From: Argopecten irradians
Taxonomy: Eukaryota > Mollusca > Bivalvia > Pectinida > Pectinidae
Assembly: GCF_041381155.1 (NCBI RefSeq)
Contig: NC_091143.1
Span: 24,579,695 to 24,643,694 of the forward strand
Direction: 5' to 3'
DNA length: 64,000 nt
Position 1 is the stretch's first letter. Each line of letters opens with the position of its first letter. The notes beneath the pieces were generated by a model that saw nothing but the letters and a program-made list of their open reading frames with translations, was not told the origin of the DNA and made no database searches. Position numbers and translations under genes: made by a program. Below are positions 7,801-63,424 of the stretch, piece after piece.

Positions 7801-8758
7801 CGGAGGGGGAGGAGGAGGAGGTGGAGGTAGTGGTGTTGGTGGAGGTGTAACATTTCCTTCAGGATTTACCGGTGGTAAAAGGTGGAATAGGAACACTGGA
7901 TTTATGGGAGGAAGCGGAGGTAGTAAACTGGGATTCCGTATGAGTGGATATAATCCAAATGGATTTATGTTTGGTCGTGGTGCCAACGGGGGGCCAAATC
8001 AATGGAAGCTCCGTAGCGGAATGGGTACTGGTTTATATGACGGTGGTGTTTATTACCTGAATAACGGCATGTACATTGGCAATGGAAGGGACATTGGTTA
8101 CGACGGGTGGCAACGCTATAGCGGACGATTCGGAACAGGTGGACATGATAGGTTCACTGGTGGTGGATTCGCTATAAATCGAGCCCCTTTTACATCTAGT
8201 ATGCAGCATAATCGTTTAGGAATAAATGACGGTTTGCAGGGACATAGAAAATTTGCGAACAGGGGAATGGATGGTGGTTGGTCTTCAAGTTCAGCCAATG
8301 CATTTAATAGTGGTTCATCACCTGGGTTTCACGGTACCTCTTCTGCCGTTGGACGAGCACAGGGAGGCAACCAAGCCAGTTCTGGAATATTCAACTCAAA
8401 TAATATATTAACTAATTTATTAACTTACAAAGCTCTATCAAGTATGATAGATTCACGGGCGGAGCAGGCTGAAAGTAGATCCGGAACCAACGCCATGATT
8501 TTAAAAGCACTTTTAGGGGGTTCACAAGGATCTGCTGGGATGGGTGGCGGTGGTTCATTCGGTAGAGGTCTCTGGGGCTCAAGCGGTGGTTCTGGTTCAT
8601 CTGGCTCATGGAATTCAGGTATGGGCAGAGGTTCCGGTGGTGGCTGGGCATCTGGAGGAAGACATGGTACTTCTGGTGGAAGTGGGGGATCGTTTTCATC
8701 TGGAGGATGGGATGGGTCCGCGTATTCAGGTGATAATGATGAGGACGACCGAAAATGA
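4838..8758 (+). CDS. Secreted poly-glycine structural protein (shell matrix/silk-like), 702 aa, three exons
   Basis: Exons 4838-4842, 6321-6400 and 6735-8758, joined by GT-AG introns (4843-6320, phase 2; 6401-6734, phase 1). Splicing replaces the apparent internal start at 6767 with a true N-terminus, MREASPSLLLVLCFVYHI, a clear signal peptide. Residues 29-110 are non-repetitive and hydrophilic. About 110-160 is proline-rich (MPPP/IPQMP). About 215-400 is poly-glycine with three 33-residue repeats (GGGSGFTGFPGG..PGVSVGIIGG) encoded by a 99-bp repeat at 7532, 7631 and 7730. A G/Y/N/R-rich part follows, then a short less repetitive helix-like part (about 565-600, NNILTNLLTYKALSSMI), then Gly/Ser/Trp-rich repeats and an acidic end (DNDEDDRK). 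Stop TGA 8756-8758; AATAAA at 8768-8773. The composition fits secreted mollusc shell-matrix or byssal proteins, but I recognise no named family. The 250-residue proline-rich frame on the other strand is a shadow. Confidence 0.85.
5083..5413. mobile_element. MITE with GATGCTCCATCGC ends (copy 1), in intron 1 of gene 1
   Basis: About 330 bp aligning with 27255-27622 over shared blocks: GGAGCAGACAAATTAG, TTTTCTTCAGTTACAGAAG, ACACCATTACCACCATTGAA, AAGTTTGAGCTTCTA and TATACTCTGTCGGCGATGG. The right terminus GCGATGGAGCATCTTTAA is present. The left terminus is degraded. Confidence 0.75.
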
Positions 8759-9312: not shown

Positions 9313-10071
9313 CTTCAAGCAGCACGCATTATAACTGGTTTAAGAAGAGGAACAAGTCACTCTATAATTTATAGAGAATCTGGCCAAGTATCACTTATTA
9401 AACGAAGACATCTACATCGAATATAACTTTTTTAATATTTTAATAAAAATTGCCCTTCTTATATTTATGAATTATTACAACCCTCTTTAAATATTCGTGA
9501 TAATTACAATTTCCGACATACATGTAACAGATTATTAAATGTTCCTGCTGCTAGAACCCAGTTATAAAAAAACAGCTTCCTCACTTCTATTATGACCGAG
9601 TGGAATGAACCGTCCTGTCCATTTCCTACAATGTCATCTGTTAGAGCCATCAAAAGTTTTACAGGAAATACATATTTCTTTAATGGTGATCGTATGTCAA
9701 ACATTTTATTATTTCAGTTGAGAAATTTTGCTAGTAACCTTAATACGGATCTCTTTAATTCTCATCTCAGTGACAGTCCAGCCTGCCAGTGTGGATTTCA
9801 AAACGAAGATTGTGAACACTATTTTCTATACTGTCCTTTATACGTCAACCCAAGACGGCTCCTTTTTAATTCTATCTTGGAACTTGACAATGATATACCA
9901 CTGACAACACAAACATTTTTACATGGCTCTGAAAGACACGATATCAACATTAATAAAGCTATATTGGTTAACGTTCAGTGCTTTGTCAGGGATACCAATG
10001 TATTTCGCTGAATTTTGTTGAATGGATTTCGTTGAATTCGTTGAATATCTTGTAAAATCTTTTTTTTCTAT
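9313..10071 (+). mobile_element. LINE 3' fragment (end of the reverse-transcriptase ORF)
   Basis: The frame from 9313 reads LQAARIITGLRRGTSHSIIY, the familiar segment after the RT domain of many LINEs. It ends in stops and shifts, and coding resumes at 9592-10011 with a C-terminal zinc-knuckle motif (CQCGFQNEDCEHYFLYC). The coding part is followed by repeated GTTGAAT motifs (10016-10046) and a short T-run, which resembles a LINE tail. It is 5'-truncated and decayed. The clade cannot be fixed from this fragment. Confidence 0.75.
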
Positions 10072-19140: not shown

Positions 19141-19168
19141 ACTGCAGAGGTCCTTCCTTGTCGGGTCC

Positions 19169-19175
19169 TATAAAG
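19169..19175 (+). promoter_or_regulatory. TATA box of gene 2
   Basis: TATAAAG in a locally GC-richer context, about 30 bp upstream of the inferred start of transcription near 19199. The leader exon 19199-19235 ends at AAG|GTAAGG. Confidence 0.7.
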
Positions 19176-20277
19176 GCGAAGGTGCCCAGGAGACAGGTAC
19201 AGTTCCACTGGCAATCCGAACCCCTCCAGATCAAGGTAAGGTGTCTGTAGTTATCGTAAAGATCTTCAGGGTAATGACTTATTTTGTTAAACATTTATCT
19301 ATCTTATTTAATTCATTTATCATCGACAGATATTTATATTGTTCAGAATACTTGGTAACGATTACATCTAAACACATTGAATTAGAATAATTAGATAAAT
19401 GTTGGAGTCAAGTTTTATCAATTTTCAGAGGAACAAAAATGTTTTTTCGCCATCAGAAAAAGATGGCATTATGATATTCAAAACAGTTAATATATTTGTT
19501 ATAGATGAAAGTAGATTAATATTAAGAAGTTACATCTCAACCTATAATTATATCATTTTTTGTTTTCATGGTTTGGTCTGCAATAAGTTTTATTTTATAA
19601 AGCCAGTTGATGTTATTTAATTTAATCATTTAATCAACTGATTCTGTTATTGAACTATAAAATGAAGCATTTTTAAAGCTTAAATGTCGTTATTCGGATC
19701 GTTCATTTAATTCACACATTGACTTAAAGAAAATAAATATGATCAGGGCCATGTTAATAAGTGCAACCAAAATCGCTAAACTTTGTAGAAAATGTTGTTC
19801 AGTAATTTTTTAATAGCAAATCGTCAACCAGAACTCTAATTAAACCTATGTAAAGCTCGATGGTATAAAACGCTCACTCCGATAATAACTGATTAAGTTT
19901 TTTTTTTAATTTTGAAAAAAAACACCTACACAATGGTTTTGTACATAGCTGAAAGAATACGTGGCTTACCTAATATCATACTAAAGTTATTTGTATATTT
20001 GCTATGGCACTTTCCGTATAAAATGTACACAATGCTAATGCCCGGCCCTAATGACATGGGACATTTAGTGGACTGTCATGTTTGTGTTGTCATAAATTGT
20101 TCTGAAATGAAGTTAAATATAATGACACTTAATGCTGGAGAGAGTGCACATTTGTGTTAACAGTTTTAACCACTTGAAGAGACATTAATCAATTGTTATA
20201 ACTATTTTACCTACATAACCCTACACAATTCCAACATACAAGGTATGTACTACTTTGGCCTGTTCTATTTTTAGAAA

Positions 20278-22338
20278 ATGCTGCTGATTGTGGCCGTACT
20301 TCTCGCCTGCTATGCTGCCCAGCCAGGAATTGGCACGTTTTGGGGTAAGTATTTATTGTCCTATATTCCATATCCTTCCTCCTTATAACACTATACAAAA
20401 CAATATTTTAACTTTTTATTTATGTTAAGATTGAAAAAAAACCGACTTCTGATGTTACAAAATATGCGAATGCAAAGCAGAATGTTATTATCTATTCCTG
20501 TATTTTCGGAAAATTATATTGTACTAAAATGAGTAACTACATGTTAATACTGTCTGTCCGATATTGGTTTCCCGATGATAGTTTGAAAACGGAGGGATAG
20601 ATTATGTTGAAACCTCCTAGAATAGTTGTTTATGAGGGGGAAAGTTTTGGGAATAAATGTGCAGTCAAACTGTCTCTCAAAGGTCACTGTTACTAAAATA
20701 GATTGTTTTTGCAAATGTTATTTTCAAACGAGAACTTAAGAACTGATTGATTGGTTTTGTTGAAACTTTGTGTAATGGTTGCCTATGATGGAGCAAAACT
20801 TGAAATTGAATTTGAAGTCAATATATCAACCCAAAGGTCACTGTTACTAAAACTAAGTTGCTTTAGTTAATGTTGGTTTCGAAACGATTACTTCATACAA
20901 AAATAGCTTATGAGTTTGAAATCTGTAAGTCATCTGTAAACAGATGGAACCCCAACGAAAATATTGCTATAAATGTATTGCTGTATTAAACAGAAACTAT
21001 GCTTTGAGCTATCAAACCTTTCCATATTACCGCCTACAACCTTTCGTTGAAGAACATAAGTATCTTATTAAGAATGAATTATAATATTTGATCATTTCAA
21101 TAGGTGGCGGAAGTGGAATGTCAACAATGACGTCTCCAATGTCTGGTTCTAATTGGTACAGCAGTCGAAGCGCTAGTAGTGTACCCTGGCAAATGCCCAT
21201 CAGTGGCGGATCATCCTCATACTACAAACGTCACTCAGTGTCCGTAGGACAACCCGTAATCTCTTCCATTTATACCACCACATACCCAATGGGCGGTATG
21301 GGCTCAATGGGCGGTATGGGCTCAATGGGCGGTATGAGCTCAATGGGCGGTATGGGCTCAATGGGCGGTATGACCTCAATGGGCGGTATGGGCTCAATGG
21401 GCGGTATGACCTCAATGGGAGGTATGGGATCCATGGGCGGCATGGGAGCTACAGGTGGTATGACTTCTATGGGTGGCATGGGATCTATGGGTGGTATGGG
21501 ATCTATGGGTGGTATGGGCTCTATGGGTGGTATGGGCGCTATGGGAGGAATGACTTCCATGGGCGGTATGGGAGCTACGGGTGGTATGACTTCAATGGGT
21601 GGCATGGGCTCTATGGGAGGTATGGGTGGTGCTGGAGGATGGAGTTCTATGGGCGGTATGGGTGGAATGGGTTCAATGGGCGGAATGAGCTCAATGGGAG
21701 GTATGGGATCTATGGGAGGTATGGGATCTATGGGAGGAATGGGAGCTATGGGAGGTATGGGATCTATGGGAGGTATGGGAGCTATGGGAGGTATGGGAGC
21801 TACCGGTGGCATGACTTCAATGGGCGGTATGGGTTCAATGGGTGGAATGGGCTCAATGGGAGGTATGGGCTCTATGGGTGGTATGGGCGGAATGGGAAGT
21901 GCTGCACGCTGGTCTAGCATGGGTGGTATGGGTGCTACTGGAGGGATGTCTTCCATGGGCGGAATGGGTGGTATGGGAAGCATGGGAGGTATGGGAAGTA
22001 TGGGAGGTATGGGAGGCATGGGCGGTATGGGAAGCATGGGAGGTATGGGAAGCATGGGCGGTATGAGTTCAATGGGTGGTATGGGTTCAATGGGCGGTAT
22101 GAGTTCAATGGGTGGCATGGGTTCAGCTGGAGCAACCATCGGAAGAGGTGGAAAAAAAAGAGGTAACTATGATGTAGTTCATTGATCTAAGAATTAAAAA
22201 TCACTTTAAATAACTTGGGTGAGGACCATATCGTTATGCCTACATTGTTTTAAAATGGCTACACCAGATGTATGAGGAACTGTTATAATGTTATAACTAA
22301 TACATCAACATACTTTCTCCATTACAGGTTCTTATTAA
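20278..22338 (+). CDS. Secreted Gly/Met hexapeptide-repeat protein (abductin/shematrin-like), 378 aa
   Basis: Non-coding leader exon about 19199-19235. Coding exons are 20278-20344 (exon from 20275 after TTTTTAG), 21104-22162 and 22328-22338, all phase 1. Exon 2 encodes a signal peptide, MLLIVAVLLACYAAQPGIG, with likely cleavage after CYAA. The mature N-terminus to about residue 80 is Ser/Tyr-rich and non-repetitive (SGSNWYSSRSASSVPW, HSVSVGQPVISSIYTTTYP). Residues about 85-360 are near-uninterrupted GSMGGM-type hexapeptides with variants GAM, GAT and TSM, interrupted twice by Trp-containing spacers (AGGWSSMG, AARWSSMG). The end is GRGGKKRGSY, where GSY comes from the last exon. No cysteine in the mature chain. 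AATAAA at 22465-22470. Gly+Met richness matches hinge-ligament abductin; the basic tail ending in Tyr recalls shematrins. Role (ligament, shell or byssus) is inferred. The gene is paralogous to 35636-38446. Confidence 0.88.
20677..20852. repeat. Two imperfect copies of a roughly 150-bp repeat in intron 2 of gene 2
   Basis: AAAGGTCACTGTTACTAAAA occurs at about 20679 and again at about 20831, each preceded by similar sequence (GTTGAAAC, TGTTTATGA/GCCTATGATGG, GTCAA). This is an ancient tandem or dispersed repeat. Confidence 0.5.
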
Positions 22339-22464
22339 AATGAGATACGGACTTCTCTCAACCAGAAAAGAAACGACGCCCTGATGTTGAAGACAAGCAT
22401 TGCCTAATTATAATCCCCTGTCATTAGATTTGTGCATGTTATAAATACCAGTTAAATTATTATA

Positions 22465-22470
22465 AATAAA
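22465..22470 (+). terminator. Poly(A) signal of gene 2
   Basis: AATAAA 127 bp after the stop. The 3' UTR has a stretch (GACGCCCTGATGTTGAAGACA, about 22375) similar to the gene 3 3' UTR. Confidence 0.7.
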
Positions 22471-22499
22471 CGTCATTGCCATAAAAATCACTGCGTTAT

Positions 22500-23940
22500 A
22501 GTAGTTCATGTATACATTTACTATATTATAGTTACGCCATTCACTTGACGTCCGCTACAAGCGACAGTAATGAAATCAGTGTAGCAACGAGAATGGAACG
22601 AACCAGTAAAAGTAATGACAGCTTTCGTTTTGAAAGCTACTTTTTTGTGTTATACGAAATCAAATAGCACTTAACCAACCTGATCTCCAAGAGTTGCTTC
22701 ACTTCATTTCACACAGTCAGTACTGAAGGAGTGACACGAAGGGAAGTCACTCTGAAATATCATAATGTCACCAAATATATATCTGTTAAAACGCAAATTC
22801 AAAGTAATCATAATAAATGCTAATCAATATAGAAAATGTCTATCTGACTGTGATATAACCGATTAAACTTTACATTTATTGCTTACTAATACTTCCGTGG
22901 AAACATGGTAAAATATCGACAGAATAACTAAGTGGTTTTTTCCGAAGGATATATTTTAGTGTTATTTTGAAATCACCATGGAAATTTTACGACACAACTG
23001 ATAATTGTAATAACTGAGTAATCACATATCTATCATTGTTTTATAATAGCGTTTACTCAAATTCAATTTCATGTTTATTATTTCATGATTTTGCATAATC
23101 ACAACAAATAAACGTTCAATTTTTCGAAGACTTAATTGTAAATGAGTGTTCATTTCATATACGATTCATGAAACAAGACTTAGATGTCTTTATTTTACTG
23201 GACTTGTTACAAAAGATAAATCTGTGAGAAGAGTTTCATAACATCCCTTCACTGCATACTTCCAAACTCTCACAAAGGAAAAGTGTGTCCAATAAATCTA
23301 TTGCTACCACAGTTTAGCCAACCCACAATACCCTTTCTTGGCCAATCAGGATTACATGATCACGAAAGGGACTGGACATGTGTGCAGTCGACCATGGTAA
23401 CAGTTGTTGTAAGAAAGGGGGAAAATCATTACCTATCTCGCTCTAATGATTAGGTCAATCAATAGACCAACTGACTATTGCTGAAAAGATTTTTAAGATA
23501 CAATGCAATAATTTAAATGAACATCAAAAGTCTTCATTAATTAATTTCTTTTAATTATCATATGATAGCTGTATATGATAGTTTTAACTCTTTAGGAACC
23601 TTTATATCAAGAAATATTAATTTGAAATTAATATATGTATTCCATTAATTGAACAGATGAAATTAATTTTAAAAACAATTTACTTACACATTTAGATCTT
23701 CCGAAAATTTATAAATTCATATACCAACCATTTTCCTTCGATTCGTTAAACAGAGCTTGATAATAATCCAATTTTTTCATACTGCTCATATTCAATAATA
23801 CATTTTGGTGCAGCATTTCGCAAAGTGAAAGTTTTTATCTCTACACATTACAATCATCCTTGTGCTTCTTACGATGGGTATTGACAAACTGATGTGTTAA
23901 CATTGAGCCAAGAACTCTCTAGTACGGAAAAAGTACTCAC
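22500..23940. other. Intergenic, nothing recognised
   Basis: AT-rich sequence downstream of gene 2. No open frame or clear repeat unit was identified. Confidence 0.35.
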
Positions 23941-23942
23941 AA

Positions 23943-24062
23943 GCATATCCTGTACCATCATCGGTAACCCAGGCGATATATACACTAACGTTAATATAAC
24001 GTTGATAAGTGTAGCGTAGTGTAGTGCGATCACTCGTGGGTCTCCGACGATGATCCTGTACA
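23943..24062. repeat. Small foldback (hairpin) element
   Basis: CATATCCTGTACCATCATCG at the left is paired by CGACGATGATCCTGTACAG at the right, with inner pairing ACACTAACGTT / AACGTTGATAAGTGT. An imperfect hairpin of about 120 bp, probably a short MITE. Confidence 0.6.
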
Positions 24063-24432
24063 GCTAAATAAAACAGACAACAATCAGAGAGTGGGGTATG
24101 GGGATGGAAAGGTGAAAATTTTCAAATCAACGTGTCTTTTTTGTTCGATTCGAGGTTAAGAAGGATGCAGGAAGTCAGTTATTGCATGATTTTTCGTCAC
24201 TCGGGACTTATTACCCCCTCGCTTCGCCCGGGTGTAATAAATTCCTTATTAATCAAAAGCCATGCAATAACCTTTACATATGAAGTGAACACAAATCTAA
24301 GATACTTTGCATCAATTAATCTCAAAACCAATATTTTAAAACAAAGTATCACAATATGTAGTAGAGGTAGCCATTCGTCACTCCGTCAATCGTAGATTCT
24401 TCACTCACATCGTTACCTTACACTCGTTCCAT

Positions 24433-24592
24433 GTCATATTACACCGGTATCATTTCAATGTGATATTGCACTAGTATCATATTCAGGTCATATTTCATTA
24501 GCATTATTTCCAAGTCATTTTACACTAGTATAATTTCCAGGTCATATTACACTAATAAGATTTCTACATCATATTACACTAGTATCATTTAA
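24433..24592. repeat. Minisatellite, 27-bp unit, six copies
   Basis: Six diverged units of the form GTCATATTACACTAGTATCA plus TTTCCAG. A single similar unit (GGTCATATTACACTAGTGGCA) occurs at about 59933. Confidence 0.75.
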
Positions 24593-24715
24593 AAAAAATG
24601 TCATGGGTGAATTCACAGGAATACCGACAGATCATATGATATATTACAGATTTACATTTCATGCAAAGGATCCAAACATTTTCCATGCAGTTATTTTGCC
24701 TCTTCTTATATTCTA

Positions 24716-24908
24716 TGCATTATTACAATTTTTCATTGAATATACCTGATTGATACCTTATGGATAATATTCATTGTGAAGTCATTATTTTGTGAGCGAT
24801 ATTCACATCGTTTTCTCTGAAAAATATGACGTTATAATCGCAAATACATGACTTCACGAACAATACCTACCCACAATGACAAACAACTCTGTAATATGCA
24901 AATACAGG
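24716..24908. mobile_element. MITE family P, copy 1
   Basis: The right end reads CCTACCCACAATG..CTCTGTAATATGCAAATAC. The left end has GCATTATTACA and GGATAATATTCATTGTGAAG. It has the family layout: TIRs around TGCATATTACAGAGTT, a GGGTAG segment, and an ATTGTGACGTCAT-like inner arm. This is a diverged copy. Confidence 0.55.
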
Positions 24909-24909
24909 A

Positions 24910-27250
24910 TAATTTACCGGTGTGGAATTTGTGAGAAATCGGATCCTTTTAGAAAGCAATGGATCAGAGATATTTCTCGACAAGAGGTAACAGGAAAGAA
25001 TGCATCAACATATTGATAAGAACAAAGAGGGAAACACGGTCAGTTTTAATGGTACATAAAAATAATGACACGACAGTTATATCTTTTTTACCATCTATAC
25101 ATAAAATTGGGCAATTGCAATTTATGATTGTGTAAATCCATAGATAATACAGGGAACATTGTCAGTGTGGAAAGACAATCACCTCGGTACTCCGACAATA
25201 TGAGTTGATGTGTTCTGACTTTTTATCTGTATTTCATACAACAACCAACGATAGCTCCTTTAAAATCTGAACTCAATAATTACATTTCAATTAGGGCTCT
25301 AAAATGATATGAAAAGGTAGGATTTCGTACCTTGTCATCAATACCCAACGATTTTATCGTATAAAAAGAGCTGCAGAATGTAATGTTGATGATTTGTCAT
25401 ATCGTTTACAGTGTAATATAATATTATATTGTAACAGCGGTATACCATATTGATTAAATGTATTACTACGGTTATCATTTATTAGTGTGATGATGAGTAT
25501 GGCCCTGTAAACGCCACATTGTAGTGGCTTATAAAGGTCATACCTTTTGACCCTGTTGATGGAAACGGAAGGTAGAGGCGCGATACATGTAAAAATATCA
25601 CTAACAGTATTTTTTTTTTATCTTATAATAGGAATTTTATGCAAATTTTGGTCAATTTTGGCGCGGAATTCAACAAGATGGCTGACCTTTAGTGTATCTT
25701 TGTATTGTTTCTCATTAAATCATTCTTGTTTGATGTCAGTATGACGCATTCCACTTGAGTTTATTTCTTTAATACGTTTAGTTTTCTGTTACCATATTTA
25801 CTGGATATCATGACATAATGTCATTCGGGTAAGACGATTAAGTTATAAGAACGCAAAACATATTGGAGAAAAGAAAAGGCCAATAAAATCTGAAAAGTTA
25901 ATTTTCAATATATCATAAAAACAATGTGCTTGATTTGTTTTCGAAATAAGAGATCTGTTACCACTGAACATGACGTTTAACATCCCCCGTCACGTAAATC
26001 CTTACACATAAAGAAAACTTAATCGGATGGGACTATATACTTATTTGTGAGGTAATAATTTTGAAAATATGTTTTTTATTATTAAAATGCTTGAAATCGT
26101 ATTCATAAAGAAACGTCTGATTACACACCGCGATATGATTTGTTTTAGTTCGCTTGTTTTATTTTTGAGGATAATTGTATTGCAAGTAAGGGATTAAATG
26201 ATATTCTTTTTATTGAACGTGGAAACGTCAACACTCTGACAAGCGGAAATCCCAATGAACAACATTCTTCCACCTGGGATGGCTTAGTATGAATGATATG
26301 TCCCCTGTGTTTACAATGTATCATCTAATGATATATATAAAAAGAGAGATAGTGACAGTTCATTTAGTAGATCTGAATTAGAATGTACTTGGCACACAAT
26401 TTTAACAAATATCCATTGTTCCCGTTCCATGTGTGCTTTGTTTCACTCTCACGACTATCTGTGTCCTGGTACGGAACGTGTATTCACTAACAACCATTCA
26501 GTGTCCAGTGTCTGTAACCTGATTGAGGTTAAACTTGTATATATCTATCACCTTGACATACGAAGCTCGTCTTACATAGATTTAGTGAAAATTATGTCAA
26601 AAAAGCAATACTTCTTTTTCTCACCTTTTCGTACAATTATCAAATCAATCAGAATAACTTTCTGAACGACACTTTTTTGCTTGAAGGATTTATAAGATAA
26701 AAAAAAGAGAAACATAGGAAATATTTTGACATGTGTCGAAGTGTGAGACGAATGCATTTCGTTATATCATTTCATAAACGGAAATAATTGTGATATGAAT
26801 TGGAACCTGACTAAAGGAATTTTGTAACGTTGTTCTATAAATAAATTTTATTACCAATAATGCAATGTCAATTGGGTGATTTAGAAAGGTGAGGAACATT
26901 TTTGTTCTGTTTTATAAACGAAACAATGTATAATGTTGTAAAACATCTATACATCGATCGCGAAGGAAAACAAATTAAAATGAATTGAATTTGATTAAAA
27001 GATTGGAGTCGTTTGAAAACCTGCAGATGATGTTGGCAATCTGTTTGGTATAGTAATACCAAATGTATTGTTCATTTTAAAGGAAAAACAAACTGCAGCA
27101 AGGTTTACTATAGATGGTAAAACGGGGAAATAAAGAAAGAGCTTACTTGTGCTTTGAATTCTTACTTTCATTAACTTTACATTAGTTGTTTAGTTCATGA
27201 GATAAAACCATACATTAGAAATCGGAACATTTTTTATTATTCTATAGTGT
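24910..27250. other. Intergenic, nothing recognised
   Basis: Several short open frames (for example 25547-25744 and 26429-26665) show no recognisable family, signal peptide or splice-linked partner. Confidence 0.35.
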
Positions 27251-27254
27251 CGTA

Positions 27255-27622
27255 CCTTAAAGATGCTCCATCGCTGACAAATGGTATTTTTTCACTATCA
27301 AAATTAGGAGCAGACGATTTAGCATTTTTCTTCAGTTACAAAAGTTACTTACTTTACACCATTACCACCATTGAAAAGTTTGAGCTTCTAATTTAATTTT
27401 ATGTTAGAAATATAGAAAAATAATTAATTGTATCCCGAAAAAAATCTGTGGTACTATATCCTATATGGAATAAAGTACTGATTGTGCATTCGCCAAAGGC
27501 AAAATAAATTATTTTATATTATTTTTTTCAGTTAATTAGACATATATATATACATTATTAAACATCGATTATTGTTTAAATGAGGAATATCATTTATGCT
27601 CTGTCGGCTGTGGAGTATCTTT
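27255..27622. mobile_element. MITE with GATGCTCCATCGC ends (copy 2)
   Basis: Left TIR TTAAAGATGCTCCATCGCTG and right TIR CGGCTGTGGAGTATCTTTAA are inverted repeats. The interior matches copy 1 in the same orientation. No coding capacity, so it is a non-autonomous DNA element. Confidence 0.75.
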
Positions 27623-27710
27623 AACAACAGATATTACAAATCCATGATTAGAATGGTGTTTTACAACATAAAATTCCCCAAACTAATGGTAACACTCCAT
27701 TAACTGTATT

Positions 27711-27871
27711 CGTATATTACAGAGTTATCTGCCCTTCTGGGACAGGATTAATTGTTACGTAATGTTTTTATGAGTGTAACGTCAGATTTCTTTCTGAGAA
27801 ATCGACGTCTTGTTTGACCACGAAGCGATACCTTGACGAAAAAAAGATAACTCTGTAATCCCCAAAGACGG
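27711..27871. mobile_element. MITE family P, copy 2
   Basis: GTATATTACAGAGTTATCTG at the left and GATAACTCTGTAATCCCCAA at the right form the TIRs. It lies directly against the start of the 41-bp minisatellite. Confidence 0.7.
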
Positions 27872-30800
27872 AATTTTAAATGACTGCATATGACATGGTT
27901 ATGTGACAAAACAATTGTAAATGATAGCATATGACATGGTTATGTGACACATGAATTGTAAATGACAGCATATGACATGGTAATGTGACACAAGAATTGT
28001 AAATGACTGCATATGACATTTCTATGTTACACAAGAATTGTAAATGACAGCATATGACATGGTAATGTGACACAATAATTGTAAATGATAGCATATGACA
28101 TGGTTATGTGACACAATAATTGTGAATGACTGCATATGACATGGTAATGTGACACAAGAATTTTAAATGACTGCATATGACATGGTTACATGACACAAGA
28201 ATTGTAAATAACTGCATATGACATGGTAATGTGACAAAGAATTGTAAATGACTGCATATGACATGTTATGTGACAAAGAATTGTGAATGACTGCATATGA
28301 CATGGTAATGTGACACAAGAATTGTAAATGACTGCATATATGACATGGTTATTTGACAAAAGAATTGTAAATAACTGTATATGACATGGTAATGTGACAC
28401 AAGAATTGTAAATGACTGCATATGACATGGTAATGTGATACAAGAATTATAAATGACTGCATATGACATGGTAATGTGACACAAGAATAGTGAATGACTT
28501 CATATGACATGGTAATGTGACAAAGAATTGTAAATGACTGTATATGACATGGTTATGTGACACAATAATTGTAAATGTTAACATATGACATGGTAATGTG
28601 ACACAAGAATTGAAAATGACTGTATATGACATGGTTATGTGACACAAGAATTGTAAATGACTGCATATGACATGGTTATGTGACACAAGAATTGTAAATG
28701 ACTGCATATGACATGGTAATGTGACACAAGAATTGTAAATAACTGCATATGACATGGTAATGTGACACAAGAATTGTAAATGACTGCATATGACATGGTA
28801 ATGTGACACAAGAATTGTAAATAACTGCATATGACATGGTAATGTGACACAAGAATTGTAAATAACTGCATATGACATGGTAATGTGACACAAGAATTGT
28901 AAATGACTGCATATGACATGGTAATGTGACACAAGAATTATAAATGACTGCATATGACATGGTAATGTGACACAAGAATTGTAAAGAACTGCACATGACA
29001 TGGTAATGTGACACAAGAATTGTAAATGACTGCATATATGACATGGTAATGTGACACAAGAATTGTAAATGACTGCATATGACATGGTAATGTGACACAA
29101 GAATTGTAAATGACTGCATATGACATGGTAATGTGACACAAGAATTATAAATGACTGCATATGACATGGTAATGTGACAAAAGAATTGTAAATGACTGCA
29201 TATGACATGGTAATGTGACACAAGAATTGTAAATGACTGTATATGACATGGTTATGTGACACAAGAATTGTGAATGACTGCATATGACATGGTAATGTGA
29301 CACAAGAATTGTAAATGACTGCATATGACATGGTAATGTGTGACACAAGAATTGTAAATGACTGCATATGACATGGTTATGTGACACAAGAATTGTAAAT
29401 AACTGTATATGACATGGTAATGTGACACAAGAATTGTAAATGACTGCATATGACATGGTAATGTGATACAAGAATTATAAATGACTGCATATGACATGGT
29501 AATGTGACAAAAGAATTGTAAATAACTGCATATGACATAGTAATGTGACACAAGAAGTGTAAATAACTGAATATATGACATGTAAATGTGACAAAAGAAT
29601 TGTAAATAACTGCATATGACATGGTAATGTGACACAAGAATTGTAAGTGAATTCATATAACATGGAAATGTGACACAATAATTGTAAATGAATGCATATA
29701 ACATAGTAATGTGACACAATAATTGTAAATGACTGCATATATGACATGGTAATGTGACACAAGAATTGTAAATGACAGCATATAATATGGTTATGTGACA
29801 CATCAATTGTAAATGACAGCATATGACATGGTAATGTGACACAAGAATTGTAAATGACTGCATATGACATTTCTATGTTACACAAGAATTGTAAATGACA
29901 GCATATGACATGGTAATGTGACACAATAATTGTAAATGATAGCATATGACATGGTTATGTGACACAATAATTGTGAATGACTGCATATGACATGGTAATG
30001 TGACACAAGAATTTTAAATGACTGCATATGACATGGTTATATGACACAAGAATTGTAAATAACTGCATATGATATGGTAATGTGACAAAGAATTGTAAAT
30101 GACTGCATATGACATGTTATGTGACAAAGAATTGTGAATGACTGCATATGACATGGTAATGTGACACAAGAATTGTAAATGACTGCATATATGACATGGT
30201 TATTTGACAAAAGAATTGTAAATAACTGTATATGACATGGTAATGTGACACAAGAATTGTAAATGACTGCATATGACATGGTAATGGGACACAACAATTG
30301 TAAATGATAGCATATGACATGGTAATGTGACACAAGAATAGTGAATGACTTCATATGACATGGTAATGTGACAAAGAATTGTAAATGACTGTATATGACA
30401 TGGTTATGTGACACAATAATTGTAAATGTTAACATATGACATGGTAATGTGACACAAGAATTGAAAATGACTGTATATGACATGGTAATGTGACACAAGA
30501 ATTTTAAATGACTGCATATGACATGGTTATATGACACAAGAATTGTAAATAACTGCATATGACATGGTAATGTGACAAAGAATTGTAAATGACTGCATAT
30601 GACATGTTATGTGACAAAGAATTGTGAATGACTGCATATGACATGGTAATGTGACACAAGAATTGTAAATGACTGCATATATGACATGGTTATTTGACAA
30701 AAGAATTGTAAATAACTGTATATGACATGGTAATGTGACACAAGAATTGTAAATGACTGCATATGACATGGTAATGGGACACAACAATTGTAAATGATAG

Positions 30801-33334
30801 CATATGACATGGTAATGTGACACAAGAATAGTGAATGACTTCATATGACATGGTAATGTGACAAAGAATTGTAAATGACTGTATATGACATGGTTATGTG
30901 ACACAATAATTGTAAATGTTAACATATGACATGGTAATGTGACACAAGAATTGAAAATGACTGTATATGACATGGTTATGTGACACAAGAATTGTAAATG
31001 ACTGCATATGACATGGTTATGTGACACAAGAATTGTAAATGACAGCATATGACATGGTAATGTGACACAAGAATTGTAAATAACTGCATATGACATGGTA
31101 ATGTGACACAAGAATTGTAAATGACTGCATATGACATGGTTATGTGACACAAGAATTGTAAATAACTGCATATGACATGGTAATGTGACACAAGAATTGT
31201 AAATGACTGTATATGACATGGTTATGTGACACAAGAATTGTGAATGACTGCATATGACATGGTAATGTGACACAAGAATTGTAAATGACTGCATATGACA
31301 TGGTAATGTGACACAAGAATTGTAAATGACTGCATATGACATGGTTATGTGACACAAGAATTGTAAATAACTGTATATGACATGGTAATGTGACACAAGA
31401 ATTGTAAATGACTGCATATGACATGGTAATGTGATACAAGAATTATAAATGACTGCATATGACATGGTAATGTGACAAAAGAATTGTAAATAACTGCATA
31501 TGACATAGTAATGTGACACAAGAAGTGTAAATAACTGAATATATGACATGTAAATGTGACAAAAGAATTGTAAATAACTGCATATGACATGGTAATGTGA
31601 CACAAGAATTGTAAGTGAATTCATATAACATAGTAATGTGACACAATAATTGTAAATGACTGCATATATGACATGGTAATGTGACACAAGAATTGTAAAT
31701 GACAGCATATAATATGGTAATGTGACACAAGAATAGTAAATAACTGCATATGACATGTTATGTGACACAAGAATTGTGAATGACTGCATATGACATGGTG
31801 ATGTGACACAAGAATTGTAAATGATAGCATATGACATGGTTATGTGACACAATAATTGTGAATGACTGCATATGACATGGTAATGTGACAAAGAATTGTA
31901 AATGACTGCATATGACATGGTTATATGACACAAAAATTGTAAATAACTGCATATGACATGGTAATGTGACACAAGAATTGTAAATGACTGTATATGACAT
32001 GGTTATGTGACACAAGAATTGTGAATGACTGCATATGACATGGTAATGTGACACAAGAATTGTAAATGACTGCATATGACATGGTAATGTGACACAAGAA
32101 TTGTAAATGACTGCATATGACATGGTTATGTGACACAAGAATTGTAAATAACTGTATATGACATGGTAATGTGACACAAGAATTGTAAATGACTGCATAT
32201 GACATGGTAATGTGATACAAGAATTATAAATGACTGCATATGACATGGTAATGTGACACAATAATTGTAAATGATAGCATATGACATGGTTATGTGACAC
32301 AATAATTGTAAATAACTGCATATGACATAGTAATGTGACACAAGAAGTGTAAATAACTGAATATATGACATGTAAATGTGACAAAAGAATTGTAAATAAC
32401 TGCATATGACATGGTAATGTGACACAAGAATTGTAAGTGAATTCATATAACATGGAAATGTGACACAATAATTGTAAATGAATGCATATAACATAGTAAT
32501 GTGACACAATAATTGTAAATGACTGCATATATGACATGGTAATGTGACACAAGAATTGTAAATGACAGCATATAATATGGTAATGTGACACAAGAATAGT
32601 AAATAACTGCATATGACATGTTATGTGACACAAGAATTGTGAATGACTGCATATGACATGGTGATGTGACACAAGAATTGTAAATGATAGCATATGACAT
32701 GGTTATGTGACACAATAATTGTGAATGACTGCATATGACATGGTAATGTGACAAAGAATTGTAAATGACTGCATATGACATGGTTATATGACACAAAAAT
32801 TGTAAATAACTGCATATGACATGTTATGTGACACAATAATTGTGAATGACAGCATATGATATGGTAATGTGACACAAGAATAGTAAATAACTGCATATGA
32901 CATGGTTATGTGACACAAGAATTGTGAATGACTGCATATGACATGTTATGTGACACAAGAATTGTAAATGATAGCATATGACATGGTTATGTGACACAAG
33001 AATTGTAAATGATAGCATATGACATGGTAATGTGACACAAGAATTTTAAATAACAGCATATGACATGGTTTGTGACACAAGAATTGTGAATGACTGCATA
33101 TGACATGGTTATGTGACACAAGAATAGTAAATAACTGCATATGACATGGTTATGTGACACAATAATTGTAAATAACTGCATATGACATGGTTATGTGACA
33201 CAAGAATTGTAAATAACTGCATATGACATGGTAATGTGACACAATAATTGTAAATAACAGCATATGACATGGTAATGTGACACAATAATTGTAAATAACA
33301 GCATATGACATGGTAATGTGGCACAAGAATTGTC
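27872..33334. repeat. 5.46-kb minisatellite, 41-bp unit, about 130 copies, higher-order repeats
   Basis: Unit: ATGACATGGTAATGTGACAC followed by AAGAATTGTAAATGACTGCAT. Common variants are GGTTATG for GGTAATG, AATAACTG for AATGACTG, 39- and 43-bp units, and GATAGCAT. Diagnostic variants recur at fixed spacings. A block of about 490 bp (12 units) at about 28150 recurs at 30003 and again directly at 30493. AAGAAGTGTAAATAACTGAA recurs at 29551, 31519 and 32341 (spacings about 48 and 20 units). The minus strand is open over long stretches (up to 481 codons). Because 41 is not a multiple of 3, the frame rotates every unit and gives a three-unit, 41-residue peptide period, so the open frame is a property of the unit and not evidence of a gene. 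Confidence 0.95.
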
Positions 33335-34385
33335 ATCCTTGCAATAAAAGAAAGGAGAGAACTGTGTATACGGTCAAGGGATAGAAATGTTCGTGAGTGT
33401 TATTTTTTAAATCATACACTTCATATTTGTGTTTTCAATTATTTTGTCTATTGTTATTTCCTCTCAAATGTTTGTACACCGAAAGAAACTGATCATTTTC
33501 TATGGCAGCATTTTCAAAATTTTTCGTTTCCCAAAGTCTCTTGTCTCAAAGTCAAATGAAACATTTAAATAATTTCTTGAAAACAAAGGAACAGATTTTT
33601 TTTTTTACATTTTATCGTCTGTGTGGAAAAGTTCATAGTTATAACTTAAAAAATAAAGTTAGACTGACTAAATGTGAAAATCCATAAATAAAACAAATAA
33701 TGACTGTGATGGATGTTTGTGTCTCTTTACTATACGTTTGGCGTAATAAAACATAGAGTGTTTGATGTTACGTTATTGATTTTTAAAATATATATATCTC
33801 AACTTAGCTTTAATGACAGTTGTTTACTATGGCCGCTCTAGTTGCAATGGTTACCTTCAAAAACATGCATACATTAATCTGCTGTTTAAGATATTCCACT
33901 ATCTAAAAGAAACTGATCATCATAAAAAAACATATTTCTAGGAAATCAGGTTTTAGCTATTCATCAGACCACACTGTCTGTCACCAGCTTAAATGACTTG
34001 TATGTAATGCGTATCCACACATCTGCTTATCATTTAACCCTTGATGTTGAAAAGACAATTAAGGACGTAAAAAGTACAGCACGAACTTATATATTGAATC
34101 GCTTGTAGCAGAATGCCACTTTTTATATGAGCTTACAGTTACACGTGTATACTGCATGTCTCTAGACTGAAACAAAAACGACTAAAATGCGATGAATCAT
34201 ATGAAATAGATAAGGATTAATTGTCCATATTAAAAGTTATGCTCAGTTAATTATATGTTTCAGTCGGGGTCAACATGTCTGGTAGGCAGAAAGGTGAAGG
34301 AAAAACAGAATCTATGCATGTTTATAGATGTTTTATGCTTTCGATACAGCATGAAATTACGTTTGTGAAAATGTCTTCCTTGTTT
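33335..34385. other. Upstream region of gene 3
   Basis: AT-rich intergenic DNA between the minisatellite and the gene 3 promoter. No gene recognised. Confidence 0.35.
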
Positions 34386-34390
34386 GTTCA

Positions 34391-34397
34391 TATAAAT
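34391..34397 (+). promoter_or_regulatory. TATA box of gene 3
   Basis: TATAAAT about 30 bp upstream of an inferred start near 34420. The leader exon of about 35 nt ends at CTAG|GTAAGG (34454). Spacing and leader length mirror gene 2, which supports the call. Confidence 0.6.
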
Positions 34398-35054
34398 AAT
34401 CTTTTCTTTTTCAATGAGTTGTCACCATTGTCGGGACGTCTATCGGAGAGCTAGGTAAGGTATTTAAATGCTACCTTAATAAGTAATAACTAAAGCAAAC
34501 TTTTGTATAGTATTAATTTAGTACTACGTATGATTATTGTTTAATTATAGTAAGCTTCGTTACCATTACGATATCTTTATAGAAAGACCCATCGATGTTT
34601 GAAATAGTGTTTTGTAGATGATCCTATTCAATTAACTGTGTATTCAGATTCAGATTATCTTATTTCCTTGTTTTATCACTATGGAGATTTGACATAAACA
34701 TATACAATAACAAAGTAGTTAGTGCTAGACAAAAATATAACTACATTTTGCATAAAAAACCAGGTACATTATATTATTAATTATGTATTTAAACCATTTT
34801 ACCAGACATAAAATCAATTGTTTCATAATGCATGTTTAAAATCTTGCAAATGTTAATATTAATTATCTTAAATTCAAAATTAAATTATCTCGTCGCTTTA
34901 AAGCAGAATCTATGCATTCTTCTGTTGAATTCCCCTATATTCTCGGTTGATAATTAAAGTACCAACTTAAACACACCAGGGCTTCTGTAATAATATGATT
35001 TGAAATATTTTTTCTTACATCAAAGTATCTTCAATATCATTAGCATTACATACC

Positions 35055-35482
35055 TCACACAACCTTTGAATTCCCTGACGATTCCAAAATCTCACTTTTT
35101 TCCATATTTAAATTATGTGAACTTAACATTGAACGTGCAATAGTCTTCTTATGTGCATTATTAATGGATTTTACTCGTTCTTGTATATAAACATCGCACG
35201 ATCTATTCTCAATAATTTTATAAGAAACTTTATCATCCATTATCGTACCATTCCAGAGATATGTTAATCCTAATTCATCTAATTGTCCCATATGTTTAAA
35301 ATCCAACTGTGATTAGATCGTATTCTGTCTTCGAATCCCATTGTGTTTATTTTTTTAGAAAATGAATTGCTTATTTCCATGGTAATGTCATTGCTGTTAT
35401 TTATTATAAACTGATGTGTAACCAGTACATTCATTGTTTTAAGTATAGTGGTGTCATGTGTACAGCTGATTTTCACAGACAT
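35055..35482 (-). mobile_element. LINE fragment in intron 1 of gene 3
   Basis: Minus-strand frames read SWILNIWDN then LDELGLTYLWNG, IIENRSCDVYIQERVKSINN and a Lys-rich end. This resembles the C-terminal part of L1/Tx1-type LINE ORF2 (W, GL-YLW, I-R-D-YIQ-W). It is short and decayed, and antisense to gene 3. Confidence 0.55.
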
Positions 35483-35635
35483 TGTCTTTGTCGGGATTCA
35501 TGCTTAAATCGGAAAATATTTTCCACTTATATTAGCGTCCGTAATCAGGATGTCATTATCGCATTTTATAAAATTTTTACTGGTAATGCTATTTTCATAA
35601 CAAAAATGATTTATTTATTTATCTAATTTTAGATA

Positions 35636-38446
35636 ATGGGGTGCCATTCGGTACTAGTTGTACTCTTCTACTATGCAGCAGTATGTGTTGACCTTGCCAG
35701 AGGTGAGTACTAATTATATCTATACATATTGTAAATATGTTGTCATGGTAACAAGTAGGTCAAAACTATATTTTATACACATCATATGTATAAAAAAGCT
35801 ATAGTTAATTTTACATGTATGTATTTTATCAGTAAAATTGGTAAGTCAATTTTGTACATCAATTGTATACATGTAGAAAGTAAAGGAATTATCATCTGAA
35901 GGGGAAAATAAGCTTATAATTATCAAACATTGACACATATAAACGATTCGGTAATTTATCGAAAAATTTGGAAATATAAATAATAATAATGAAAATAATA
36001 TGTCTAATATTTGACGCTCTGAAAAAAAAAGATAAACTATCTTATTATTTATCGAAGAGTTTGAAAATATGAATAATAATAGTAGTGTCTAATATTTGAA
36101 GTTTAGAAAAAATAAGACAAATTCACCATGTAATTTATCGCAGAAATTATGAATTAGTTAAGCATTACTCTCAATATCTTATCTTTTGGGATTATGAAGT
36201 CATAGACAAAAAACGGAAGGACATTCTTCATAGACGCGAAACGTCTTGAAAAAGAATGTCCGTCTGTTTTTTTGTGTCAATGACTTTATAACCCCAAAAG
36301 ATATTGAGAATAATGCTTATAATTTAATTCAGATAACTCAATCTGGTACTAATTAGGCATAAATATCAGTAATTTTACTTACTTTTCCCATAAAACAAAC
36401 CGAGTTGTGGCGCATTGATATCTTTTCCGATAATTCAATTTGGCCAATGATTGTGCCGCTTTTAAAATTCCCCGCGAAAAAGTTTTGTACGTATGACGTC
36501 ACAATACGTGACGTACAATTCTTTCGGTTTATGGAAAACTAACCTCAAAGAACTAACCAATATAAATGAGCGTAACACATACAATTAAATTATAGTAAAA
36601 TGGACAAGAGCAATCTAAATTTCAAAATGTTGGTATATATATCTATGAACAAATCCCTCCCAAATTTGACATATTTCGACATTTATTATTTTACTATTCA
36701 CAATGCACAGTTATTTTCTTCTATGAACTGGTGACATTCAGTCAAACGGTTCTTCCAAAACACATACCAATGGAGGAAAAAGAGTCTCATATCAAATAAA
36801 TAACCAACGTTTACCTTCGTAGTAATTTTAAATAAATCTACGCAGCCCCATCCTCAATATTTCAGTGGTTTCTTTCACTGCCGTAATATTCATTACAGGA
36901 TTATCGAGGATGACGCTGACCTTTTAATGCATAATTATTATAAATAACACATTTGTTTTCTGTTTTATTCATCAGCAATGACAATTTTAAATATCTTCGC
37001 TTACTAGGGTCAAAGGTTGCTAACGACGACTATTGCAAATATCAACTCTTACTTGTTTTCTGTTAAGGTCAATGTTCACCGCCATTGCCTATTGTAAATA
37101 TCATAAATGTTTCTGTTTTAGGCACAGGTTCGCCAGGAATGACTAGTATCTTATCCGGGGCATCATCAGGAGCATCCGGTGGCGCAATGATCCCTGCCTC
37201 TTCCGGTACTGGTATCATTACCAGCGGTGGGATTTCTGGTAGCGGAATGATATCCGGTGGTAGTGGAATGGCTACTGATGGAATGATGGCAGGCGGAAGT
37301 GGAATTACTGGTGGTGATGACTTTGGCATGATAAGCAGTACTGCAATCCCATTTTCCGGGATAGGTAGCGGAATATCTGCCGGAATGTGTACCATGATAC
37401 CGGGAAGCAGCTGGACATTCTATCGCTCAACTGGGGGAATACCAACATATGGAATTGGAGGAGGAATGATGGGAGGTGGAGCAATGGGCGGGGGAATGAT
37501 GGGAGGAGCAGCTATGGGAGGAGCTATGGGAGGCGGAGCGATGGGAGGAGCAGCTATGGGAGGAATGGCCAGTGGGGGCATGGGAGGAGGAATGATGGGA
37601 GGAGGAGCTATGGGAGGCGGGGCTATGGGAGGAGGAGCGATGGGAGGAGCAGCTATGGGAGGAATGACCAGTGGGGGCATGGGAGGAGGAATGATGGGAG
37701 GAGGAGCTATGGGAGGCGGGGCTATGGGAGGAGGAGCGATGGGAGGAGCAGCTATGGGAGGAATGGCCAGTGGGGGCATGGGGGGAGGAATGATGGGAGG
37801 CGGAGCTATGGGAGGCGGAGCGATGGGAGGAGCAGCTATGGGAGGAATGGCCAGTGGGGGCATGGGAGGAGGAATAATGGGAGGCGGAGCTATGGGAGGA
37901 GCTATGGGTGGAGGAATGATGGGAGGCGGGACTATGGGCGGGATGACCAGTGGGGGCATGGTAAGAGGAGCTATGGGAGGAGCTATGGGAGGAGCTATGG
38001 GAGGAGCTATGGGAGGAGCTATGGGTGGAATGACCAGTGGGGGCATGGGAGGAGGAATGATGGGAGGAGGAGCTATTGGAGGTGGGGCAATGGGTGGTAC
38101 TATGGGAGGAGCTATGGGTGGAGGAATGATGGGAGGAGCAGCTATGGGAGGAGGAATGACGGGAGGAGCAGCTATGGGAGGCGGAGCTATGGGTGGAGGA
38201 ATGATGGGAGGAGGAGCTATGGGAGGAATGCGCAGAGGAGGAATGTCCTTCATTAATGTCAGACGCAAATCAAAAGTAGGTAAGAACCCTATCAGTTTCT
38301 ACATTATGTGATAAACATCCCGGTATAAAGAAAATACAGTTATTCATATCATAGAGAGTTATTATGTACTTTTTATATTGAAAGCGACCTAGGACACATA
38401 TTCCATTAATTGTGATATAATCTTTTGAATTACAGGATCCTATTAA
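35636..38446 (+). CDS. Secreted Gly/Met/Ala pentapeptide-repeat protein (abductin/shematrin-like), 411 aa
   Basis: Leader exon about 34420-34454. Coding exons are 35636-35702 (exon from 35633), 37122-38279 and 38436-38446, all phase 1. The first coding exon has 67 coding nt, as in gene 2, and gives a signal peptide, MGCHSVLVVLFYYAAVCVDLA. Residues 23 to about 135 are Gly/Ser/Ile/Met-rich and irregular, with one cysteine (residue 112, GMCTMIPG). From about 137 to 390 the chain consists of GGGAM, GGGMM, GGAAM and ASGGM pentapeptides arranged in 33-residue higher-order repeats (99 bp). The end is RRGGMSFINVRRKSKVGSY, where GSY comes from the 11-nt last coding exon. Stop TAA 38444-38446; AATAAA at 38534-38539. 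Composition, exon phases, tail and a similar 3' UTR stretch make it a paralogue of gene 2. Function in ligament, shell or byssus is inferred. Opposite-strand and second-frame open frames (282, 289 aa) are shadows. Confidence 0.88.
36144..36329. mobile_element. Foldback element in intron 2 of gene 3
   Basis: A near-complete hairpin. AGCATTACTCTCAATATCTT, TTTTGGGATTATGAAGTCAT and GGACATTCTTC on the left pair in order with GAAAAAGAATGTCC, ATGACTTTATAACCCCAAAA and GATATTGAGAATAATGCT on the right. The loop is near 36230-36240. Confidence 0.75.
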
Positions 38447-38533
38447 ACAAGAGAAATCAATCTACTGTAGACGCCCGGTGATGATGGACATCCGTTCTCA
38501 TTGTAATGCAAATCCCTTTATTGTCATTTTGAA

Positions 38534-38539
38534 AATAAA
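38534..38539 (+). terminator. Poly(A) signal of gene 3
   Basis: AATAAA 88 bp after the stop codon. Confidence 0.7.
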
Positions 38540-38914
38540 TGTTAAAGCTCGGTTTAAGTTTGCTTTATTTTTTATAAATGTTGGCGATCAACATCAAAAT
38601 AACTGCTGGCAGTTACTGGGAAATATTCCCTATAATTTGGTTTGATGTAATATGCATGATGAGGTATACATGCTAAGATAAAAAGTTTCCCAGGGCTAAA
38701 ATTTTACATACAAGCAATAAAACTCAGGATGGACTGATATAGTTTACATGATGTTATGACACTAGTCCCCGGTGACAAAATAAATTGCAAAATAAACTAT
38801 AACATACCACTCTCCTTTGACGATACTTACGTCGAAAGATACGCATTTCTTATCAGAGTTCACATGATGGGCTTCTATTCTATCAACACTGTCTTTGGTG
38901 TTGTGTAGATGATG

Positions 38915-53200: not shown

Positions 53201-53344
53201 AGGTGCAGATTGCATTTGTTCTTGAAGATGTGATCGCTATCCTTCATATTTGAAAATGTGATGTCGTGAGTATGTGATTATTAGACCAAGTGTTGGGTAA
53301 TCAGTGATGTACACATGATGTTTTAACCATACATCTCAACGACC

Positions 53345-53638
53345 ATGGAGTTTATAAAACGAGACAGAGAAACTTCAAAAAGCAAGAAATCTGACAAAAG
53401 AGTCAAGTTGAATATCGGTGGAGAGATTTTCGAATCCTGGGTGTCCACTTTAGAACGAATTCCGGGGACAAGACTAGCCTTGTTAGCCCACCTTCAGGAG
53501 GCAGACGAATCCTGGGATAAGGAAAGGGACGAATTCTTCTTCGATCGGCATGCAGGGGCCTTTATTTCGATTCTGCACTACTACCGGACAGAGGAATTAC
53601 ACGTCGACCAGAACATTTGTGGGAACATCGTCCGAGGG
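53345..53638 (+). CDS. Voltage-gated K+ channel, T1-domain exon (Shaw/Kv3-like), 5' part only
   Basis: The exon runs from an acceptor at 53202 to a donor GGG|GTGAGT (53639). The ATG has a good context (ACGACCATGG). The 98 encoded residues hold a T1/BTB tetramerisation domain from about residue 19: VKLNIGG, STLERIPGTRLALL, DEFFFDRHAGAFISILHYYR, then LHVDQNIC. The H-x5-C is the first half of the HX5CX20CC zinc site that characterises Kv2/3/4 channels and is absent from Shaker (Kv1). The FFFDRH and ILHYYRTEELH match is closest to Shaw/Kv3. The rest (second half of the zinc site, S1-S6, pore TVGYG) was not found in the 10.3 kb downstream. Either the next intron is long or this is an orphan exon. 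The usual PLFEEEL after the cysteine is replaced by GNIVRG just before the donor, so the true donor could lie a few bases off. Confidence 0.8.
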
Positions 53639-63418: not shown

Positions 63419-63424
63419 TTACCG

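Follow-up and report, generated by a model that had tools for sequence, protein, structure and literature searches.

Abductin is the rubber of the scallop hinge (Cao et al. 1997, as described in PMC13052691). Its elasticity has been ascribed to random-coil networks in which tyrosine residues are the likely cross-link sites, and the bay-scallop protein carries the landmarks Tyr4, Cys6, Cys10 and Tyr20 (PMC13052691). In Pinctada fucata, insoluble proteins rich in methionine were described from nacre, prisms and ligament, the ligament protein LMP among them (PMC7591529), and polyproline-II (PPII) helices were reported for the GGM tails of GroEL in a paper that also cites abductin as PPII (PMC12571646). 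Here, we analysed a stretch of 64,000 nucleotides (nt) of the Argopecten irradians genome (C10:24,579,695-24,643,694; hereafter the window), which carries two genes for long Gly/Met-rich proteins, designated as genes 2 and 3. The genome searched comprises 845.8 Mb in 1,508 contigs; C1, C9, C10 and C12 are contigs of this same genome.

Genes 2 and 3 are probably diverged, Phe-less relatives of abductin, which would encode secreted Gly/Met polymers cross-linked outside the cell, most likely in the hinge ligament or in the shell or periostracum. This reading rests on the gene plan, on the composition of the products, on the features that link the two genes to each other, on an abductin gene of this genome that follows the same plan, and on the leader of gene 2, which resembles the abductin leader.

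Architecture and products of genes 2 and 3

Both genes show the architecture proposed in the initial annotation: each has a TATA box, a signal exon whose coding part measures 67 nt, coding introns in phase 1, one repeat exon, and an exon of 11 nt for Gly-Ser-Tyr. The features are listed below with positions in the whole window; the 5′ ends of both leader exons are assumed to lie about 30 nt past the TATA box. UTR denotes untranslated region.

19153-19174, + strand: gene 2 core promoter, CTTCCTTGTCGGGTCC followed by TATAAA (at 19169); block common with gene 3
19199-19235, + strand: gene 2 non-coding leader exon, start assumed, end set by donor GTAAGG; last 33 nt similar to the abductin leader
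20275-20344, + strand: gene 2 signal exon, opening 3 nt 5′ of ATG 20278; 67 coding nt, phase 1
21104-22162, + strand: gene 2 repeat exon, 1059 nt; Tyr/Trp-bearing N-terminal part, about 93 triplets (mostly Gly-X-Met), basic stretch
22328-22338, + strand: gene 2 last coding exon, 11 nt; GTTCTTATTAA, with the G 5′ of the intron, reads Gly-Ser-Tyr-stop
22339-22470, + strand: gene 2 3′ UTR, holding GACGCCCTGATG; AATAAA at 22465
34375-34396, + strand: gene 3 core promoter, CTTCCTTGTTTGTTCA followed by TATAAA (at 34391)
34421-34454, + strand: gene 3 non-coding leader exon, start assumed, end set by donor GTAAGG; unlike the leader of gene 2 or of abductin
35633-35702, + strand: gene 3 signal exon, opening 3 nt 5′ of ATG 35636; 67 coding nt, phase 1
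37122-38279, + strand: gene 3 repeat exon, 1158 nt; Gly/Ser/Ile N-terminal part, Tyr123, Tyr132, GGGAM-type repeats, basic tail
38436-38446, + strand: gene 3 last coding exon, 11 nt; GATCCTATTAA, Gly-Ser-Tyr-stop
38447-38539, + strand: gene 3 3′ UTR, holding GACGCCCGGTGATG; AATAAA at 38534

All six donors are GT and all six acceptors AG. This complete gene structure, with splice sites, TATA boxes and poly(A) signals, speaks against the view that the two genes are decaying or unexpressed simple-repeat reading frames, which we regard as highly improbable. Such a view could point to the tandem repeats that make up both repeat exons and to the long repeat frames present elsewhere in the genome. 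The other reading frames of both repeat exons are open as well, and therefore an open frame by itself proves little. Codon position 3, however, was the most variable one in the repeats of gene 2 (0.35 vs 0.10 and 0.06; 38 units) and of gene 3 (0.24 vs 0.08 and 0.11; 37 units), as expected of a constrained protein.

The predicted product of gene 2 has 378 amino acids (aa), with 38% Gly, 24% Met and 16% Ser and no Asp or Glu anywhere in the protein. Tyrosine occurs at positions 12, 41, 62, 63, 79, 83 and 378 and the only Phe at position 21; Cys11 and Tyr12 stand in the N-terminus. The product of gene 3 (411 aa; 42% Gly, 18% Met, 12% Ala) carries four Asp, Tyr at positions 12, 13, 123, 132 and 411, Phe at 11, 90, 100, 122 and 399, all outside the repeats, and the cysteines Cys3 and Cys17. 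The repeat cores of the two proteins were compared by period only: the core of gene 2 is almost strictly Gly-X-Met, with a Met spacing of 3 in 78 of 84 cases, while the spacings in gene 3 are mostly 5 and 4. Both cores contain hardly any Lys or Arg.

The triplet period raises the question whether gene 2 encodes a triple-helix fibre of Gly-X-Y type, be it collagen-like or not, with Met as Y. Glycine opens 79 of the 93 triplets of the core, and a phmmer search of gene 2 against PDB chains returned 28 sequences at E values up to 1, aligned in triplet register; the best match was a spindlefibril/axialfibril entry (E = 6.1e-24) and most others were collagen chains (best E = 1.6e-16). The remaining 14 triplets lack the leading Gly, however, the core opens with its sole proline (residue 84), the periods of gene 3 and abductin are different ones, and no Pfam family was found at E 0.001. 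We thus consider a triple-helix fibre very unlikely. As to membership of gene 2 in the collagens proper, a regular Pro/Hyp-rich Gly-X-Y sequence was absent (79 of 93 triplets with Gly, one Pro, no Pfam match), and this assignment was rejected. The Pfam search at the same threshold likewise gave no family for gene 3 or for gene 1 of the window, the latter searched as its repeat exon frame, and Rfam gave no match at gathering scores.

The initial annotation had also likened the basic, Tyr-ending tails to those of shematrins. Shematrin C-termini read RKKKY, RRKKY or RRRKY (PMC11358866), whereas gene 2 ends in KKRGSY and gene 3 in RRKSKVGSY, and therefore this comparison fails.

Evidence for a common origin of genes 2 and 3

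The 17 nt 5′ of the TATA box are identical at 12 positions between the two genes, a level reached by 21 of the 12,403 pairs of TATAAA in the window, and local alignment of the 60 nt upstream gave p = 0.016. An N-terminal motif, GSGxSxxMxxxxxGSxWxxxRSxxxxP, is common to both proteins with one gap (p = 0.029), the 3′ UTRs align with p = 0.036, and the C-terminal tails with p = 0.061. In contrast, no similarity was detected between the leader exons, neither by local alignment (p = 0.36) nor when anchored at the donor (10/30, p = 0.95). Combining the TATA-anchored, N-terminal and 3′ UTR values according to Fisher, which is valid only if the tests are independent, yielded 1.8e-4, and 3.8e-4 or 8.3e-4 with the leader comparison included. 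Promoter block, N-terminal motif and 3′ UTR thus support a common origin of genes 2 and 3, and the leader exons do not. The paralogy assumed initially is borne out to this extent. The leader length of about 35 nt holds if transcription starts about 30 nt past the TATA box, as assumed here. The 3′ UTRs do share an alignable stretch, but GACGCCC alone is a weak mark and the spacing of the proposed GACGCCC-GATG stretch is different in gene 2.

Patterns built from these marks were searched in the genome and in a control. The loose GACGCCC-GATG pattern, which can match gene 3 only, did not serve as a family mark (39 genome matches vs 31 in the control). A pattern of tail plus GACGCC matched genes 2 and 3 only, from which it had been built, with none in the control. 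The promoter-block pattern found, at no mismatch, genes 2 and 3 (by construction) and three further places at one mismatch, against four in the control. Two places with one mismatch, C12:34441162 and 34475929, lie 35 kb apart, at a count equal to the control level; they are possibly further tandem genes.

The interval between genes 2 and 3 contains a 41-bp satellite with about 133 copies and 89% matches (27871-33333 of the window).

Abductin genes in the same genome

When a tandem built synthetically from the abductin consensus was used as query, the genome gave 24 matches, one of which was outstanding at 84% identity and represents abductin on C9 (L053). The other 23, read on the matched strand, were tandem or unrelated repeats, none of them abductin-like. 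Abductin was read at sequence level for this one C9 copy, on the minus strand. In its product of 136 aa, MNAYICLAACLIAAVSAAGY precedes the GGFGGMGGG-type repeats; Tyr4, Cys6, Cys10 and Tyr20, the landmarks given in PMC13052691, are present. The plan of the gene consists of a TATA box, a non-coding leader exon, a phase-1 signal exon with 55 coding nt, one repeat exon, a phase-1 intron and a micro-exon, G/GCTATTAA, encoding Gly-Tyr-stop. Tyrosines are found at positions 4, 20 and 136, the third being the last residue and encoded by the micro-exon. The Met spacing is mostly 10.

A search with this protein revealed five abductin repeat-exon loci within 54 kb (G000:C9:40821563-40875109), four of which share a strand, whereas the fifth lies in the opposite orientation and has an internal TGA. 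The four same-strand loci are preceded by a leader-exon end of the form TCCAGATC-(3 nt)-AAGGTAAG; this donor-side pattern had seven matches in the genome, namely the four abductin loci, gene 2 and two others, vs two in the control. The same four loci are followed, 283-350 nt downstream, by a string of acceptor plus Gly-Tyr-stop, which has nine matches in the genome, five of them elsewhere (control 2). The abductin last exon, searched at three mismatches, was found in the source copy, in one further C9 copy with Gly-Tyr-stop and at one place on C1 (control 0). The C1 match lacks both an AG acceptor and a stop codon and was rejected.

Relation of genes 2 and 3 to abductin

The initial annotation had left two options: the genes could be relatives of abductin that lack Phe, or a Met-rich matrix family of their own. 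The C9 abductin gene has the exon plan, the intron phases, the micro-exon and the end-placed Tyr of genes 2 and 3, with Tyr confined to the N-terminal part and the last residue in all three proteins. In the broad sense in which we define an abductin-like plan, that is a leader, a phase-1 signal exon, one Gly/Met repeat exon, a phase-1 intron and a Tyr-stop micro-exon, both genes have it. In addition, the end of the gene 2 leader (TTCCACTGGCAATCCGAACCCCTCCAGATCAAG) resembles that of abductin (TTCCACCGTCAGATCAAACCTATCCAGATCTTCAAG): donor-anchored comparison gave 22/30 identities, a value reached by 0 of 20,000 shuffles in a segment picked after the alignment had been seen, and local alignment gave p = 0.0035 from 2,000 shuffles, which was the lowest value among nine comparisons. 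When the positions common to both leaders were made into a pattern and searched with up to three mismatches, it matched gene 2, the four abductin loci and four other places, vs three matches in the control. An abductin gene with the same plan together with the leader match of gene 2 therefore favours the first option, and a separate Met-rich matrix family appears rather unlikely.

Several observations weigh against this kinship. The gene 3 leader matches neither the abductin leader (10/30, p = 0.92) nor that of gene 2 (10/30, p = 0.95), and the upstream regions and 3′ UTRs of both genes are unlike those of abductin (p = 0.84-0.99). The N-terminal part of abductin compared with that of gene 3 gave p = 0.14; the value for gene 2 (p = 0.0065) concerns low-complexity sequence. 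The Phe decamer GGFGGMGGGX is absent from the repeats of genes 2 and 3; the abductin signal exon has 55 instead of 67 coding nt and its tail is Gly-Tyr instead of Gly-Ser-Tyr. The leader segment and the patterns were selected after both sequences had been seen, and the plan itself may be one that secreted genes commonly use. As gene 3 differs in leader, upstream region and 3′ UTR, it is tied to abductin only via the gene plan and via gene 2; the kinship is accordingly firmer for gene 2 than for gene 3. Since the Phe decamer is lacking, the two genes are to be regarded as relatives of abductin and not as abductin. An assignment to abductin in the strict sense was rejected: both genes lack the Phe repeat and the N-terminus with Tyr4, Cys6, Cys10 and Tyr20, and the C9 gene has both.

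The same observations bear on an explanation by convergence, according to which genes 2 and 3 encode silk-like Gly/Met shell-matrix proteins whose composition converged on that of abductin and whose gene plan is common among mantle-secreted proteins, without special kinship. Silk-like and Met-rich matrix proteins do occur in mollusc shells (PMC4944945, PMC7591529), and neither the upstream region nor the 3′ UTR, nor the leader of gene 3, is held in common with abductin. This explanation does not account for the similarity between the leaders of gene 2 and abductin or for the C-terminal Tyr micro-exon in gene 2, gene 3 and abductin, and gene 1, which is also Gly-rich and lies in the window, follows another plan. 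We consider convergence doubtful and favour descent from a common origin with abductin.

Search for further members

A protein search of the genome gave at least 111 matches for gene 2 and at least 12 for gene 3, the genes themselves included. Thirty of the gene 2 matches and all 12 gene 3 matches were examined, using the one frame richest in Met and Gly at each locus (at least 100 aa). No further copies of genes 2 or 3 were found among these loci; the other frames were tandem-repeat or unrelated. The micro-exon pattern TTNCAGGNTCNTATTAA occurred at 12 sites in the genome (control 4), and genes 2 and 3 were the only ones with a Gly/Met frame within 1.5 kb upstream; this search covered introns of up to 1.5 kb and the codons of TTNCAGGNTCNTATTAA, and does not exclude members with longer introns or other codons. 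No title or abstract among the matches listed in surveys of the open literature dealt with genes 2 and 3 or with an abductin gene cluster.

Proposed function and mechanism

From the sequences, we infer a role of genes 2 and 3 in ligament or shell. Long Gly/Met chains would be secreted and then coupled outside the cell by oxidation of tyrosines, presumably at the chain ends in particular, which would make them "telechelic" polymers whose Gly/Met core is left as an entropic spring. As the cores are devoid of Tyr, which is placed in the N-terminal part and at the C-terminal residue, coupling would be mainly end-to-end. In gene 2, the Met stripe at every third residue would fit a PPII or polyglycine-II helix, and the PPII helices of GGM tails suggest that a Met-striped bundle of PPII or polyglycine-II type is possible for this protein. 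The core of gene 3 may be less ordered and nearer to abductin rubber, abductin being likewise presumably a looser coil.

Published data also set limits to this mechanism. The PPII share of GGM tails amounted to just about 22-35% in simulations (PMC12571646), abductin is called a random coil in PMC13052691, and PMC3291537 has Tyr interspersed among the abductin repeats, which does not speak for end-linking. Such interspersed Tyr were not seen in the C9 abductin copy.

The polymer could instead end up outside the hinge ligament, namely in periostracum, byssus or shell layers; this explanation has polymer and kinship in common with the preferred one and overlaps with it. Deposition outside the ligament is less probable than not but deserves attention, as Met-rich insoluble proteins were found in nacre, prisms and ligament of P. 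fucata alike (PMC7591529). Genes 2 and 3 encode no acidic region, and the same paper names this absence as a mark of its ligament proteins; this, like their kinship with a hinge protein, is a point against a site outside the ligament.

Beyond the relationship with abductin, one can speculate, with considerable reserve, that "telechelic" Gly/Met elastomers form a wider family with abductin as one of its branches. In such a family, the cross-linking Tyr at the C-terminus would have its own micro-exon and the repeat exon would be freely replaced, and gene 2 would encode a Met-striped bundle fibre of about 93 triplets, mostly Gly-X-Met, in polyglycine-II conformation. No description of a Met-striped polyglycine-II type of extracellular structural protein was met in the literature examined. 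Elastomeric proteins including abductin are described as independently arisen (PMC3291537); the shared gene plan, if true, would supply an evolutionary context, with a repeat exon that is exchangeable while the exons for secretion and end-linking persist. With Met spacings of 3, mostly 4-5, and 10 residues, the three natural proteins would lend themselves to probing how spacing affects stiffness in a rubber-like protein.

Other features of the window

Gene 1 (4838-8758, + strand; exons 4838-4842, 6321-6400 and 6735-8758; ATG 4838) encodes 702 aa, 28% of them Gly. The N-terminus of the protein is signal-like, its end is acidic (DNDEDDRK), and it contains runs of poly-Gly as well as GSGFTGFPGG units. 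The gene differs in plan from genes 2 and 3, having the ATG in exon 1 and the stop within the repeat exon. Therefore, as far as this one gene allows a comparison, their plan is not common to every Gly-rich gene here.

An exon-like frame with a BTB_2 (BTB/POZ) domain was identified at 53327-53665 (+ strand; Pfam E = 4.1e-18). A 147-aa frame with a Cys/His pattern lies at 9568-10011 (+ strand) and had no Pfam match; the pattern recalls the end of reverse transcriptases of non-LTR (non-long terminal repeat) type. Degenerate tandem repeats of about 40 bp were recognised by eye around CATGAGGCATAGTGACAAAGCGTTTGTCC at about 62450-63420.

Comparison with known systems

The GGM tail of GroEL/Hsp60 has the idea of a Gly-Gly-Met triplet in common with the core of gene 2, but is the unrelated tail of a chaperonin, with about 19 residues compared to about 280 (PMC12571646). 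Shematrins are shell proteins which resemble the predicted products of genes 2 and 3 in being rich in Gly and in having a basic C-terminus whose last residue is Tyr. The Met-rich proteins of P. fucata and LMP, with which MRNP34 and NU-5 are grouped here, are described as forming a cross-linked Met-rich matrix, as proposed here for genes 2 and 3, with LMP as a major component of the ligament (PMC7591529). Some of the Met-rich proteins of nacre and prisms bear acidic regions (PMC7591529), unlike genes 2 and 3. Abductin differs from genes 2 and 3 in its Phe repeats, its length (136 aa vs 378 and 411 aa), its location on a different chromosome, its upstream region and its 3′ UTR. It is, as predicted for them, a secreted Gly/Met polymer with little Pro, encoded by a single repeat exon flanked by phase-1 introns and terminated by a micro-exon that ends in Tyr.

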